In this document: in pieces, positions 52,534 to 57,228 of the stretch
Position numbering within the stretch: position 1 is the stretch's first letter
Layout: each line of letters starts with the position of its first letter
Assembly (NCBI RefSeq): GCF_003351045.1
Contig: NZ_QQZY01000002.1
Coordinates: forward strand, 432,001 to 496,000
DNA length: 64,000 nucleotides
Direction: 5' to 3'
DNA from: Gaiella occulta
GTDB taxonomy: Bacteria; Actinomycetota; Thermoleophilia; Gaiellales; Gaiellaceae
Made by a program: the position numbers and the translations under genes
The notes under the pieces: model-generated
Seen by the model: the letters and a program-made list of their open reading frames with translations, nothing else
Told to the model about the DNA's origin: nothing
Databases searched by the model: none

Positions 52534-53778
52534 CTAGAGGCCGAACGCCTCGCCGGCCAGATCGGAGAGGCGCTCGGCGATCGCGAGCGACGACGTCGCC
52601 CCGGGGGACGGCGCGTTGCGCACGTGGATGGCCCCGTCGCGGTGCTCGAGCACGAAGTCGTCCACGAGCGTGCCGTCGGCGGCGAGCGCCTGCGCGCGAA
52701 TGCCCGCCGGCCCGGGCACGACGTCCGAGGGCTCGAGCTCGGGGATCAGCCTGCGCGCCGAGGCGACGAACAAGCGCTTGCTGTAGTCGCGCACCGTCTC
52801 GCCGAGCCCGGTGCGCCAGTAGCGCCGCGCGATGCGACGGAACCCGGGCGCGCGCAGCGTCTCGGCGAGGTCGCCGAGGCTCACGTCGAAGCGCCCGTAG
52901 CCCTCGCGCGCGAAGGCGAGCACCGCGTTGGGCCCGAGCAGTACCGACCCGTCGACGCGCAGCGTCGTGTGGATGCCGAGGAACGGGAAGCCGGGGTCGG
53001 GGACGGGATAGACGAGCGCGTTGACGAGATGCCGCCGCTCCGGCTTGAGCGCGTAGTAGTCGCCGCGGAACGGGACGATGCGCGGCTCGGGGTCTCCACC
53101 GCCGAGCCGCGCGACCCGGTCGGCGTAGACGCCGGCGCAGGCGACGACGTGCCGCGCCTCGACGCTGCCGGCGCCGGTCTCGAGCAGAACGCGGCCGCGC
53201 ACGCGGCGGATGCCGGTCACCTCGCGGCCGAGGAGCACCTCGCCGCCTGCGGCCGCGAAGTCTTCCGCGTAGGCGGATGCGACGCGGCCGTAGTCGACGA
53301 CCCCGGTACCGGGAACGTGCAGCGCGCGCACGCCGGCGACGTGCGGCTCCAGCTCTCGCAGCCGCTCGCGTCCGATCAGCTCGAGCCCCGCGACGCCGTT
53401 CGCGACGCCGCGCCGGTGCAGCTCCTCGAGGCGCGGCAGCTCCTGCGGCAGCCTCGCCACGACGACCTTCCCGCAGCGCAGGGTGGGAATCCCCTTCTCG
53501 TCGCAGTATGCGCTGAGAGCGGCGGCACCGCGCACGCACAGCTCCGCCTTCAGCGAGCCGGGCGCGTAGTAGATGCCGGAGTGGATGACGCCGCTGTTGC
53601 GGCCCGTCTGGTGCCGGGCGATCGCCTGCTCCTTGTCGAGCACGACGATGCGCAGCCGTGGATGGCGCAGCGCGAGCAGCCGCGCCGTGGAGAGGCCGAC
53701 GATGCCGGCCCCGATCACAGCCACGTCGGCGCGGCGGTCGGCGGCGGCGGCCGTCCCGGCGGGCAGGGGGTCGTCCAC
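52534..53778 (-). CDS. lhgO: L-2-hydroxyglutarate dehydrogenase/oxidase
   Basis: 414-residue FAD enzyme oxidising L-2-hydroxyglutarate to 2-oxoglutarate. The dinucleotide motif DVAVIGAGIVGLSTARLL is followed by HQTGRNSGVIHSGIYYAPGS, the hallmark of LhgO/L2HGDH, with PFRGDYYAL and FPFLGIHTTLRVDG later. GTG at 53778 precedes the FAD motif by about 20 residues. It is last in an etfB-etfA-ETF-QO-lhgO cluster (11 bases after ETF-QO). This suggests its electrons pass through ETF-QO or directly to the quinone pool. Confidence 0.92.
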   Translation of the reverse strand: MDDPLPAGTAAAADRRADVAVIGAGIVGLSTARLLALRHPRLRIVVLDKEQAIARHQTGRNSGVIHSGIYYAPGSLKAELCVRGAAALSAYCDEKGIPTLRCGKVVVARLPQELPRLEELHRRGVANGVAGLELIGRERLRELEPHVAGVRALHVPGTGVVDYGRVASAYAEDFAAAGGEVLLGREVTGIRRVRGRVLLETGAGSVEARHVVACAGVYADRVARLGGGDPEPRIVPFRGDYYALKPERRHLVNALVYPVPDPGFPFLGIHTTLRVDGSVLLGPNAVLAFAREGYGRFDVSLGDLAETLRAPGFRRIARRYWRTGLGETVRDYSKRLFVASARRLIPELEPSDVVPGPAGIRAQALAADGTLVDDFVLEHRDGAIHVRNAPSPGATSSLAIAERLSDLAGEAFGL

Positions 53779-53789
53779 GGCAGGCGCCT

Positions 53790-55445
53790 CTACGTCAACG
53801 TGTACTCGGGGCCGGAGCCGCCCTCGGGCGGGGTCAAGCGGCCGCCGCGGGCGCTGATCGCGCCGCACTGGACGCAGTTCGACGGCGTCATCCTCACCTC
53901 CACCGTCCCGTCGCCCAGCTCGTCTCCCACCTCGTACACCTGCGCCGGGCACATCCATGCCCACATCTCCGCGACGTCGCGCGGCACGCGACGCTCGATG
54001 CGCACGTGGTTCGGCTGGTCGTCGCGCGTGCGGTTGCCCGAGGCGAACACCGACGAGAGCTTGTCGAACGTGAGCGCTCCGTCGGGAACCGGGTAGCGCG
54101 CCGCACGTCCTGAGCGCAGCAGCGGCACCGCGTCGTTGCGTTCGTTGTGGAACTCCTTCGGCGGCAGCTTCCCCTTCGTCACCGTCATCGCGCTCGCAAG
54201 CGCGCCGCCGACGAAGAAGCCCTTCTCGAACGCCTGCCGCATGTTCCGCACCTGCCGCAGGCTCTGCCCCACGTAGCCGCCGCGCAGCTCCTCGTCGTAG
54301 GAGTCGAAGACGCCGATGCGTCCGGGGCTCTCGCCTCGCTCGAGCGAGCGGAAGGCAGCTTCGGCAGCGAGGCGCCCCGACTCGATCGCCAGGTGCACCC
54401 CTTTGAGCCGGGCGAGGTCGACGAGGCCGGCGCTCTCGCCGACGAGCAGCAGGCCGGGGGCGTTGAGCTTTCGCGGCAGGGCGTGCCAGCCACCGCTCGT
54501 GATCGTCTTCGCCCCCCACGCGAGGCGCTCGCCGCCCTCGAGGATGCGCCGCACGAAGGGATGCGTCTTGAACTCCTGCAGGAGGTCGTGCGCGGAGAGC
54601 TCGAGGTCGCGGTAGTCGAGCCCGATCACGAACCCGATCGACACCATCTCCTCGCCCATCGGGTAGATCCACGAGCCGCCGAACTCCCGGTAGGCGGCGC
54701 GCTTGCGCAGCGGCCAGCCGAGCGTGTGCACGATCTTGTCGAGGGGCCGCGCGACCCGCCACACCTCCTTGACGCCGAGCTCCCACATCTGCGGCTCGCG
54801 CCCGTGCAGGCCGAAGTGGTCGATCGCCGCATAGGTGAGGTGTCCGGCCGTGCCCTCGGCGAGCACGGTGACCTTGGCGACGATGTCGGAGCCGGGCTCG
54901 AAGTTGCCGAGCGGCTCGCCCTCCTTGCCACGGCCCTTGTCGCCCGTGCGCACGCCGGCGACGCGGCCGTGCTCGACGAGCAGCCGCTCGGCGCTCGTCT
55001 CCGGGAGGATGAACGTGCCGCCCGCTTCGGCCTGCTCGGCCAGGGTTCGGGCCATCTGCGAGATCGAGACGATCCAGTTGCCGTGGTTGCGCAGCGTCGG
55101 CGGCGGTGGGATCCGGAGCGCCCGCCTGCGCGTCAGCAGGTACACGCCCTCCCCCGGCACCTCGCCGTAGGTCGGCACGGCGGCGAGCTGCTCGGGCCGG
55201 CCCCTGAACAGGCGGCGCAGCGCGCGCGGGTTCATGACCGCGCCGGAGAGCAGGTGGGAGCCCGGCTGCTTGCCCTTGTCGACGAGCGCGACGGGAACCT
55301 CGCCCAGGCGCTCCGCGACGTCGGGCCGCTCCTCGAGCAGCTGTCCGAGCCGCAGCGCGCACGCGAGCCCGCCGGGGCCACCGCCGACGATGAGCACGCC
55401 GACCTCGATGCGCTCGCCGGGCGCGTCCGTCGGGGCCGCGATCAC
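53790..55445 (-). CDS. Electron transfer flavoprotein-quinone oxidoreductase, three-cysteine variant
   Basis: About 551 residues, membrane-associated, passing electrons from ETF to menaquinone. FAD binding uses VLIVGGGPGGLACALRLGQLL. GSWIYPMGEEMVSIGFVIGL and APGLLLVGESAGLVDLARLKG match ETF-QO. The C-terminal ferredoxin-like part has Cys499, Cys524 and Cys527 (CPAQVY...NCVQCGAIS) but Ile530 stands where the fourth [4Fe-4S] Cys is expected. GTG at 55445 is the first conventional start; homologous-looking sequence (FPPPFSDAE) continues upstream, so the true start may be non-canonical and overlap etfA. Confidence 0.9.
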   Translation of the reverse strand: MIAAPTDAPGERIEVGVLIVGGGPGGLACALRLGQLLEERPDVAERLGEVPVALVDKGKQPGSHLLSGAVMNPRALRRLFRGRPEQLAAVPTYGEVPGEGVYLLTRRRALRIPPPPTLRNHGNWIVSISQMARTLAEQAEAGGTFILPETSAERLLVEHGRVAGVRTGDKGRGKEGEPLGNFEPGSDIVAKVTVLAEGTAGHLTYAAIDHFGLHGREPQMWELGVKEVWRVARPLDKIVHTLGWPLRKRAAYREFGGSWIYPMGEEMVSIGFVIGLDYRDLELSAHDLLQEFKTHPFVRRILEGGERLAWGAKTITSGGWHALPRKLNAPGLLLVGESAGLVDLARLKGVHLAIESGRLAAEAAFRSLERGESPGRIGVFDSYDEELRGGYVGQSLRQVRNMRQAFEKGFFVGGALASAMTVTKGKLPPKEFHNERNDAVPLLRSGRAARYPVPDGALTFDKLSSVFASGNRTRDDQPNHVRIERRVPRDVAEMWAWMCPAQVYEVGDELGDGTVEVRMTPSNCVQCGAISARGGRLTPPEGGSGPEYTLT

Positions 55446-55498: not shown

Positions 55499-56455
55499 CT
55501 AGGCCTTGCGCCGGCGCACGAGCTCGGCGAGCCTGGGCGCGACGTCCTCGACCTTGCCCACGATGCCGAAGTCGGCGAAGTCGAAGATGGGCGCGTTCGG
55601 ATCCTTGTTGATCGCGACGATCGTGCCCGAGCTCTGCATGCCGACCTTGTGCTGGATCGCCCCGGAGATACCGAGCGCGATGTAGAGCCTCGGCGACACC
55701 GACTTGCCCGTCTGCCCGACCTGGGTCGAGTACGGGTACCAGCCGGCGTCGACGACCGCGCGCGTGGCGGCGACGGCTCCGCCGAGCGCCTCCGCGAGCT
55801 CCTCGGCGAGCCTGAACCCCTCGGGGGCGCCGAGCCCGCGGCCGCCCGCGACGATCACGTCGGCGTCCTCGATCGACGGCCCACTCGACTGCTCGTGGGC
55901 CTGCTCGACCATGCGCGCCGCCGTCGAGTAGTCGCGCAGCTCGGCGGCGACCTCCTGCACGGTCGCAGTGCCGCCCGTCTCGACGGCCTCGAACGCGCCG
56001 GAGCGGACGAGCGCGATGCGCGGCGTGCTCGTCCATCCCACGTCGACGAGCACGGTGTCGCCGAGTGCCGGGCGCTTGGCGACGAGCGTGCCGCCGTCGA
56101 GCGCGAGGTCGGTCACGTCCCAGTTGAGGCCGGCGTCGAGCCGCGCCGCGAGCCCTGCGGCGACGTCGGCGGAGAGGACGGAAGCGGCGAAGAGGACGTT
56201 CTCCGCGCCGGAGGCGCGCACCACGGCCTCGAGCGCGTCGACGCGCGGCTGCGGCAGCGGCGCCTCGAGCGCCGGGTCGTCGACCACGTACACGGTCGAG
56301 GCGCCGTAGTTGCCTGCGGCGGCAGCGGCGGCGCGGACGCCGTGGCCGACGACGACCGCGGCCACCTCGCCTCCGAGCGATGCGGCCTTGGCGAGAACGC
56401 CGAGCCCGCCCTTCTGCAGCTCGCCGTCGTGATGCTCGAGGAACACGAGCGTCAT
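55499..56455 (-). CDS. etfA: Electron transfer flavoprotein alpha subunit
   Basis: 318 residues. The C-terminal FAD domain has VIVAGGRGLGAPEGF, QVGQTGKSVSPRLYIALGIS, GAIQHKVGMQSS and VAINKDPNAPIFDFADFGIVG. The protein accepts electrons from acyl-CoA dehydrogenases such as that at 13732. It overlaps etfB by four bases (ATGA). Confidence 0.97.
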   Translation of the reverse strand: MTLVFLEHHDGELQKGGLGVLAKAASLGGEVAAVVVGHGVRAAAAAAGNYGASTVYVVDDPALEAPLPQPRVDALEAVVRASGAENVLFAASVLSADVAAGLAARLDAGLNWDVTDLALDGGTLVAKRPALGDTVLVDVGWTSTPRIALVRSGAFEAVETGGTATVQEVAAELRDYSTAARMVEQAHEQSSGPSIEDADVIVAGGRGLGAPEGFRLAEELAEALGGAVAATRAVVDAGWYPYSTQVGQTGKSVSPRLYIALGISGAIQHKVGMQSSGTIVAINKDPNAPIFDFADFGIVGKVEDVAPRLAELVRRRKA

Positions 56456-57228
56456 AGCAGCTTCCTCTCCGCGAGGAACTCGACGAGCCGCTCGGCGGCG
56501 CTGCCGTCGTCCTCGAGCTTGATCTGGTCGCCCTTCGGCGGCGGCGGCGCGAGCGCGATCACCGTGGTGCGCGAGCCGGCCGCGCCCGCGCGGTCGGCCT
56601 CGACAGCGATGTCGGCGAGGGAGAGCGTCTCGGTCGGCTTCGACTTCGCGCTCATGATCCCCTTGAGCGACGGGTAGCGAGGCTCGTTGATGGCGTCGGA
56701 GACGGCGACGACGGCCGGAAGCGGCGCGGAGATGACGTCGTAGCCGAACTCCGTCTGGCGCTTGCCGGTCACCGAGCCGCCGTCGACGGTGAGCTCGGCG
56801 ACCTGCGAGACCATCGGCCGGCGCAGCCGCTCGGCGACGGCCGCCCACAGCACGGCGCCGTCGGAGTCGGACGACTGCTGCCCGAACAGGACGAGGTCGG
56901 CGCTCTCGCGCTCGAGCGCCTTCGCGAGCACGTAGCTCGTCGCCACGAGATCGGAGCCGGCGGCGTCCGGGTCGGAGACGAGCACGGCGCGGTCGGCGCC
57001 CATCGCGAGCGCCTTGCGCAGCGAGTCCAGCGCCTTCTCGGGGCCGAGCGACACGACGACCACCTCGCCGCCCGCGGCCTCCTTGATGCGCAGGGCCTCC
57101 TCGACGGCATTGACGTCGGTGGCGTTGAGCGCGCTCTCGCCCGAGCGGTCGAGGCGCCGCGTGACCGGGTCGAGCCGCTTCGCGGCGGTCGCGTCCGGGA
57201 CCTGCTTGACACAGACGGCGATCTTCAT
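56452..57228 (-). CDS. etfB: Electron transfer flavoprotein beta subunit
   Basis: 258 residues binding [21 protein letters not shown] at the N-terminus, [32 protein letters not shown] and the recognition loop [16 protein letters not shown] are canonical. TAGAGT lies seven bases before the ATG, so the etf operon transcript is likely leaderless. Confidence 0.97.

Follow-up and report, generated by a model that had tools for sequence, protein, structure and literature searches.

A clade-wide ETF-quinone oxidoreductase variant of Thermoleophilia with isoleucine at the position of the fourth cluster cysteine

Within the window, the 64,000-nucleotide stretch of Gaiella occulta DNA that was analysed, lies a gene whose product is, by homology, an ETF-quinone oxidoreductase (ETF-QO), with transfer of electrons from ETF to quinone as its predicted function (Table 1). 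The translated protein ends in MCPAQVYEVGDELGDGTVEVRMTPSNCVQCGAISARGGRLTPPEGGSGPEYTLT and combines three domains in one chain: FAD_binding_2 (32.6 bits, Pfam cut-off 20.4), ETFQO_UQ-bd (PF21162; 86.2 bits, cut-off 27.7) and Fer4_ETF_QO (PF05187; 45.6 bits, cut-off 24). Pig ETF-QO (2gmh) is its best solved relative, with an E-value of 8.7e-88 over residues 14-548. An AlphaFold model aligns with 2gmh over 507 residues (VIA-align Z 36.2, rmsd 3.3), the cluster tail being of low confidence, and scores lower against FixC (7koe_C; Z 33.3). The gene is the only PF05187 match of a genome that is 97.9% complete, and the same search found no second, complete ETF-QO copy there.

Table 1. Features of the ETF-QO locus and codons of its cluster site (window positions)
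Feature	Position	Strand	Evidence or remark
FAD-dependent oxidoreductase (DAO family), downstream; start approximate	52534..53748	(-)	PF01266 219.1 bits
ETF-quinone oxidoreductase gene	53790..55445	(-)	551 aa, GTG start, TAG stop, open frame; Pfam, pig 2gmh relative
Variant cluster motif C-V-Q-C-G-A-I-S-A-R-G-G (canonical C-V-H-C-K-T-C-D...)	53841..53876	(-)	Tail comparison
Ile530 codon ATC, replacing the fourth cluster cysteine	53856..53858	(-)	Codon reading and alignment
Ala529 codon; canonical enzymes have Thr before the fourth Cys	53859..53861	(-)	Alignment
Cys527 codon, presumed cluster ligand	53865..53867	(-)	Codon reading and alignment
Cys524 codon, presumed cluster ligand	53874..53876	(-)	Codon reading and alignment
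Cys499 codon, first presumed cluster ligand (MCPAQVY)	53949..53951	(-)	Invariant in 126/126 full-length members
etfA, ETF alpha subunit, directly upstream of ETF-QO	55499..56455	(-)	PF00766 120.7 bits, PF01012 114.5 bits; solved relatives
etfB, ETF beta subunit, overlaps etfA by 4 bases	56452..57228	(-)	PF01012 144.9 bits; solved relatives

The gene sits in an etfB-etfA-ETF-QO operon. As in the window, etfB-etfA lies directly upstream in five of the eight named relative loci that share the variant cluster site described below (L002, L003, L004, L008 and L009). The upstream DNA is short in L005 and L007 (Miltoncostaea). The operon is not universal, since L006 has neither etfA nor etfB within 5 kb on either side. 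By E-value, the best solved relatives of EtfB are the bifurcating Etf subunits 6fah, 5ol2 and 7qh2, although its gene adjoins ETF-QO. The downstream DAO-family gene presumably encodes an L-2-hydroxyglutarate-oxidase-like enzyme. Elsewhere in the genome lies a 706-residue homologue of EtfD (L183:1054-3171, minus strand; G000:C1 near 537908-538534), which matches mycobacterial EtfD (9ojn) with an E-value of 3.9e-155. This homologue may provide a second exit for ETF electrons, in which case ETF-QO would possibly not be the sole ETF dehydrogenase. A short distance from it lies a DAO-GCV_T fusion resembling dimethylglycine dehydrogenase.

Canonical ETF-QO, represented by the pig enzyme and three proteobacterial copies (L192-L194), has the same fold and length as the window protein, the same FAD and ubiquinone-binding domains, the CPAxVY and NCVxC half-motifs and a C-terminal GP-x-Y. 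It differs at the cluster. The canonical ligand set consists of the cysteine of CPA together with C-x2-C-x2-C, and the third cysteine of this triplet is isoleucine in the window protein. A sequence-only reading had described Cys499, Cys524 and Cys527 with isoleucine at position 530, and had excluded a frameshift; the codon coordinates agree on each residue, and the frame is intact through the conserved C-terminus. That reading had treated the change as the loss of one residue. The fourth cysteine is indeed gone, but the alteration is larger: three adjacent residues differ together, Lys-Thr-Cys (within CKTCD) becoming Gly-Ala-Ile (within CGAI[TSN]), and in the alignment the loop leading to EGG is four residues shorter. 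Conversion of a cysteine codon (TGY) to an isoleucine codon (ATH) takes at least two base changes. As the same isoleucine recurs in independent genomes, Ile530 is more than a chance state; its codon is ATC in 139 motif matches, ATT in 8 and ATA in 4, some of these loci overlapping.

The extent of this variant was defined with 172 translated relative loci: 149 with three cysteines (C-x2-C-x2-not-C), 14 canonical four-cysteine loci and 9 without the motif. The last group was left out of the counts and comprises eight FixC-like loci and L106 (G159:C16). In L106, a three-cysteine tail is found in a frame other than that of the N-terminal part, most likely through an assembly frameshift. Weak PF05187 matches known only by their genomes, mostly in class families f6, f7 and f9, also lie outside these counts. 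Because some loci repeat one gene, the 149 loci give 135 distinct tails; the column alignment took in 126 distinct proteins of full length (at least 530 aa).

All 135 distinct three-cysteine tails contain N-C-[VI]-[QH]-C-G-A-I-[TSN]-A-[KR]-G-G, and all 14 four-cysteine loci contain C-[VL]-H-C-K-T-C-D. The variant is genuine and extends across the clade, with nearly all relatives read from the class sharing this form of an otherwise known enzyme. Across the 126 aligned proteins, which are ~52-87% identical to the window protein, 81 of its 551 positions do not vary. These include Cys499, Cys524, Cys527, Gly528, Ala529 and Ile530, along with Pro500, Ala501, Val503 and Tyr504 beside the first cysteine. 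Position 531 holds a polar residue in every protein (Thr 116, Asn 6, Ser 4) and position 533 a basic one in every protein (Lys 117, Arg 9), and the tail comparison shows CPAxVY and EGGxGPxY to be conserved. Exactly three cysteines are thus conserved, and a residue of non-ligating type occupies the fourth position.

Could another cysteine of the same chain refill the site, as the earlier reading had allowed for a nearby one? There is no other conserved cysteine column among the 126 proteins: the next best, position 29 in the N-terminal FAD-binding part, holds cysteine in 69. Moreover, eight of the 126 possess only the three ligand cysteines in the whole chain. Together, these observations rule out a spare chain cysteine, and the site is not refilled from its own chain; another protein might still donate a ligand.

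Among the matches listed, three-cysteine proteins score ~44-66 bits against PF05187, with a few near 40, and same-class four-cysteine proteins score 131-146. In one three-cysteine subgroup (L076-L085, class family f1), the PF05187 match is about six residues shorter; the stretch from CPA to NCVQC is trimmed, and the cluster motif is unchanged.

The distribution of the motif follows the class. An exact degenerate-codon scan of 396 Actinomycetota genomes finds it in 27. All of these belong to the 38 Thermoleophilia genomes of the draw; the 358 genomes of other classes lack it, and the reversed pattern, used as a control, matches none of the 396. Beyond Actinomycetota, motif scans covered Acidobacteriota and Planctomycetota, and the motif is absent from all 199 and 149 genomes, respectively. 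The Pseudomonadota sample stood at 3/422 plasmid records. In a protein search of the same Actinomycetota draw, matches outside Thermoleophilia are FixC-like (E 1e-21 to 1e-23), with no full-length ETF-QO-like match among them.

The trait is not claimed for every Thermoleophilia genome, because class family f7 has canonical four-cysteine enzymes (L016-L022, with L073 a repeat of the L022 gene). A tree was built from 48 of 130 three-cysteine rows (a random sample plus the named loci), 13 four-cysteine rows and 3 FixC rows. In this tree, the f7 enzymes cluster with four-cysteine enzymes from other phyla (support 100/98), and a branch (92/96; present in 88% of bootstrap trees) has all the sampled three-cysteine rows on the same side. 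This topology fits one origin of the three-cysteine variant and a separate acquisition of the four-cysteine enzyme in f7. Among open-licence PMC texts, no title or abstract opening that we found describes a three-cysteine ETF-QO.

The four-cysteine enzymes of f7, Acidobacteriota, Planctomycetota and Eisenbacteria are ~35-42% identical to the window protein and have the same domain order. They differ in their four ligand cysteines, in their separate branch and in extra cysteines just before CPA (L010-L015 and L016-L022; C-x3-C ... P-C-x3-C-P-A). These extra cysteines are absent from the pig enzyme, the three proteobacterial copies and the three-cysteine clade. They perhaps mark a second cluster as in FixX, which has two [4Fe-4S] motifs (PMC6085437). 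The Fix/EtfABCX system resembles the window protein in the flavoprotein fold of FixC and in a PF05187-related cluster domain; FixC and FixX are split subunits, whereas the window protein is one chain with a single three-cysteine motif. EtfD of M. smegmatis (9ojn) is similar in its proposed role in passing electrons from ETF to menaquinone. EtfD is a membrane protein with CCG domains, is stated not to be homologous with mammalian ETF-QO, and carries a linear [3Fe-4S] and a noncubane [4Fe-4S] cluster (PMC13083937). The window protein has no Pfam match to the CCG domain; the CCG and 9ojn matches belong to L183.

Taken in aggregate, the comparisons bear on the nature of the cluster. As the loss of the fourth cysteine is common to nearly all class relatives read, the cluster probably differs in type from the textbook [4Fe-4S]. 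With the motif in every distinct tail, three cysteines and isoleucine in every full-length protein and no other cysteine column above 69 of 126, selection appears to hold the number of ligands at exactly three. Elsewhere the enzyme is intact, as judged by both ETF-QO domains, the structural match to 2gmh and the conserved flanking motifs. The sequence-only reading had left three options, namely a [3Fe-4S] cluster, another ligand, or cluster loss. A retained three-cysteine cluster fits the conservation best, and cluster loss is less likely. We therefore lean, with modest confidence, towards an ETF:menaquinone oxidoreductase whose cluster would be held by three cysteine ligands and would most likely be [3Fe-4S].

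In canonical ETF-QO, the cluster is the electron entry point. If the same holds here, electrons from ETF would pass through the cluster domain to FAD and on to the menaquinone pool. The lineage has rebuilt the site by exchanging the fourth ligand cysteine for isoleucine and Lys-Thr for Gly-Ala and by removing four loop residues, while keeping the other three cysteines. A cubane [3Fe-4S] would most likely rest on Cys499, Cys524 and Cys527, and Ile530 would cover the corner left without iron.

Fumarate reductase offers a comparable arrangement. In its [3Fe-4S] site, which lies beside the quinone, an aliphatic residue sits over the empty iron corner, and E. coli FrdB has valine at the vacant ligand place. 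With three strictly kept ligands and an aliphatic side chain where the fourth would be, the window protein has an anatomy resembling native [3Fe-4S] sites. The likeness to the FrdB/SdhB site of complex II extends to a quinone-linked enzyme that uses three cysteines, of which two belong to a loop and the other lies far from it, as in FrdB (PMC1459171). It has limits: going by the numbering C204/C210, FrdB lacks the middle cysteine of the loop rather than the third, and the site belongs to a helical ferredoxin domain of another protein family. A second precedent is FAD glucose dehydrogenase, in which a surface [3Fe-4S] on three cysteines, 12-13 A from the flavin, takes electrons from FAD and delivers them to a partner subunit (PMC6719666). 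A regular-expression look for a [3Fe-4S] site in the genome's own SdhB returns only a four-cysteine-type stretch. In the AlphaFold model, the flavin domains are good and pLDDT falls below 50 at 521-551. A canonical four-cysteine control (L013), run with the same 15 rows, has means of 53, 64, 51 and 38 in its last blocks, which is better but still weak, so the difference in pLDDT is not evidence.

The main rival to a [3Fe-4S] cluster is a [4Fe-4S] cluster retained on the three cysteines and a non-cysteine fourth ligand, which we consider appreciably less probable. The ligand would be water or hydroxide, Thr/Ser/Asn531 or Lys/Arg533, with a site-differentiated iron as in aconitase and radical-SAM enzymes. 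[4Fe-4S] clusters on three cysteines, in which one coordination site stays free, are well known (PMC5352715). The invariant residues would fit such a cluster with a solvent or side-chain ligand, and the always polar position 531 and always basic position 533 directly follow the missing cysteine. Against this, the interchange of Thr, Ser and Asn at 531 is unusual for a metal ligand, and the ligand position itself is occupied in every case by aliphatic isoleucine. An exposed, labile iron would also be a poor choice for an electron relay.

The earlier reading had further suggested that the loss of the ligand matches a lower-potential menaquinone pool. The genome contains two matches to PF02621 (MqnA/MqnD; E 5.0e-70 and 5.5e-60), no match to menA and only sub-cut-off matches to ubiA_proteo. 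Together, this points to menaquinone made by the futalosine route, and menaquinone is probably the quinone of the window ETF-QO. The suggestion is thus half borne out, for the likely quinone; a link between the quinone and the lost ligand would be conjectural. That the isoleucine substitution tunes the cluster down to this pool, a proposal compatible with any cluster type, seems rather doubtful. Beyond the menaquinone markers, it would draw on Ala529, which stands where canonical enzymes have a threonine hydrogen-bonded to the cluster; in R. sphaeroides ETF-QO, the equivalent substitution T525A reportedly lowers the potential. Four-cysteine enzymes nevertheless persist in f7 and in Acidobacteriota, which are expected menaquinone users. 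In addition, the potential of [3Fe-4S] clusters is commonly rather high, so that the threonine-to-alanine change and a [3Fe-4S] would pull in opposite directions. For both reasons, we give the causal claim little weight.

Loss of the cluster is unlikely. Here, the ETF flavin would reduce the FAD of ETF-QO directly, and the three cysteines would be relics or would be structural, in a disulfide or a zinc site. The missing ligand, the shortened loop and the PF05187 scores far below those of same-class four-cysteine enzymes would all be expected. A relic site should drift in a clade of this divergence, yet the three cysteines, Pro500, Ala501, Val503, Tyr504 and Gly528-Ala529-Ile530 do not vary in any of the 126 proteins. 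The cluster of R. sphaeroides ETF-QO is also said to be the electron acceptor from ETF, which counts against a direct flavin route. Finally, a base-call error at the isoleucine codon, which the earlier reading had named as a possible refutation, a frameshift or a decaying pseudogene could explain one missing ligand in one genome, but is refuted by the same isoleucine in all 135 distinct tails from many genomes and by the open frame to the conserved C-terminus, and has next to no chance of being correct.

The standard link from fatty-acid oxidation to the quinone pool is ETF-QO, which is regarded as a [4Fe-4S] flavoenzyme. With a natural three-ligand variant spread across a clade, the relay's need for [4Fe-4S] becomes testable, and CGAI[TSN]A[KR]GG provides a simple annotation signature for a distinct ETF-QO subfamily. 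The data suggest that Thermoleophilia, within Actinomycetota, are not reliant only on the mycobacterial EtfD route. The chances seem evenly balanced that, in most of the class, ETF-linked respiration depends on an ETF-QO whose cluster is a native [3Fe-4S] or an open-iron-site [4Fe-4S], fixed once in an ancestor. If so, an enzyme known elsewhere as a [4Fe-4S] protein would have a second cofactor state in nature, and the clade would offer a natural experiment on the importance of cluster type for electron transfer from ETF to menaquinone.
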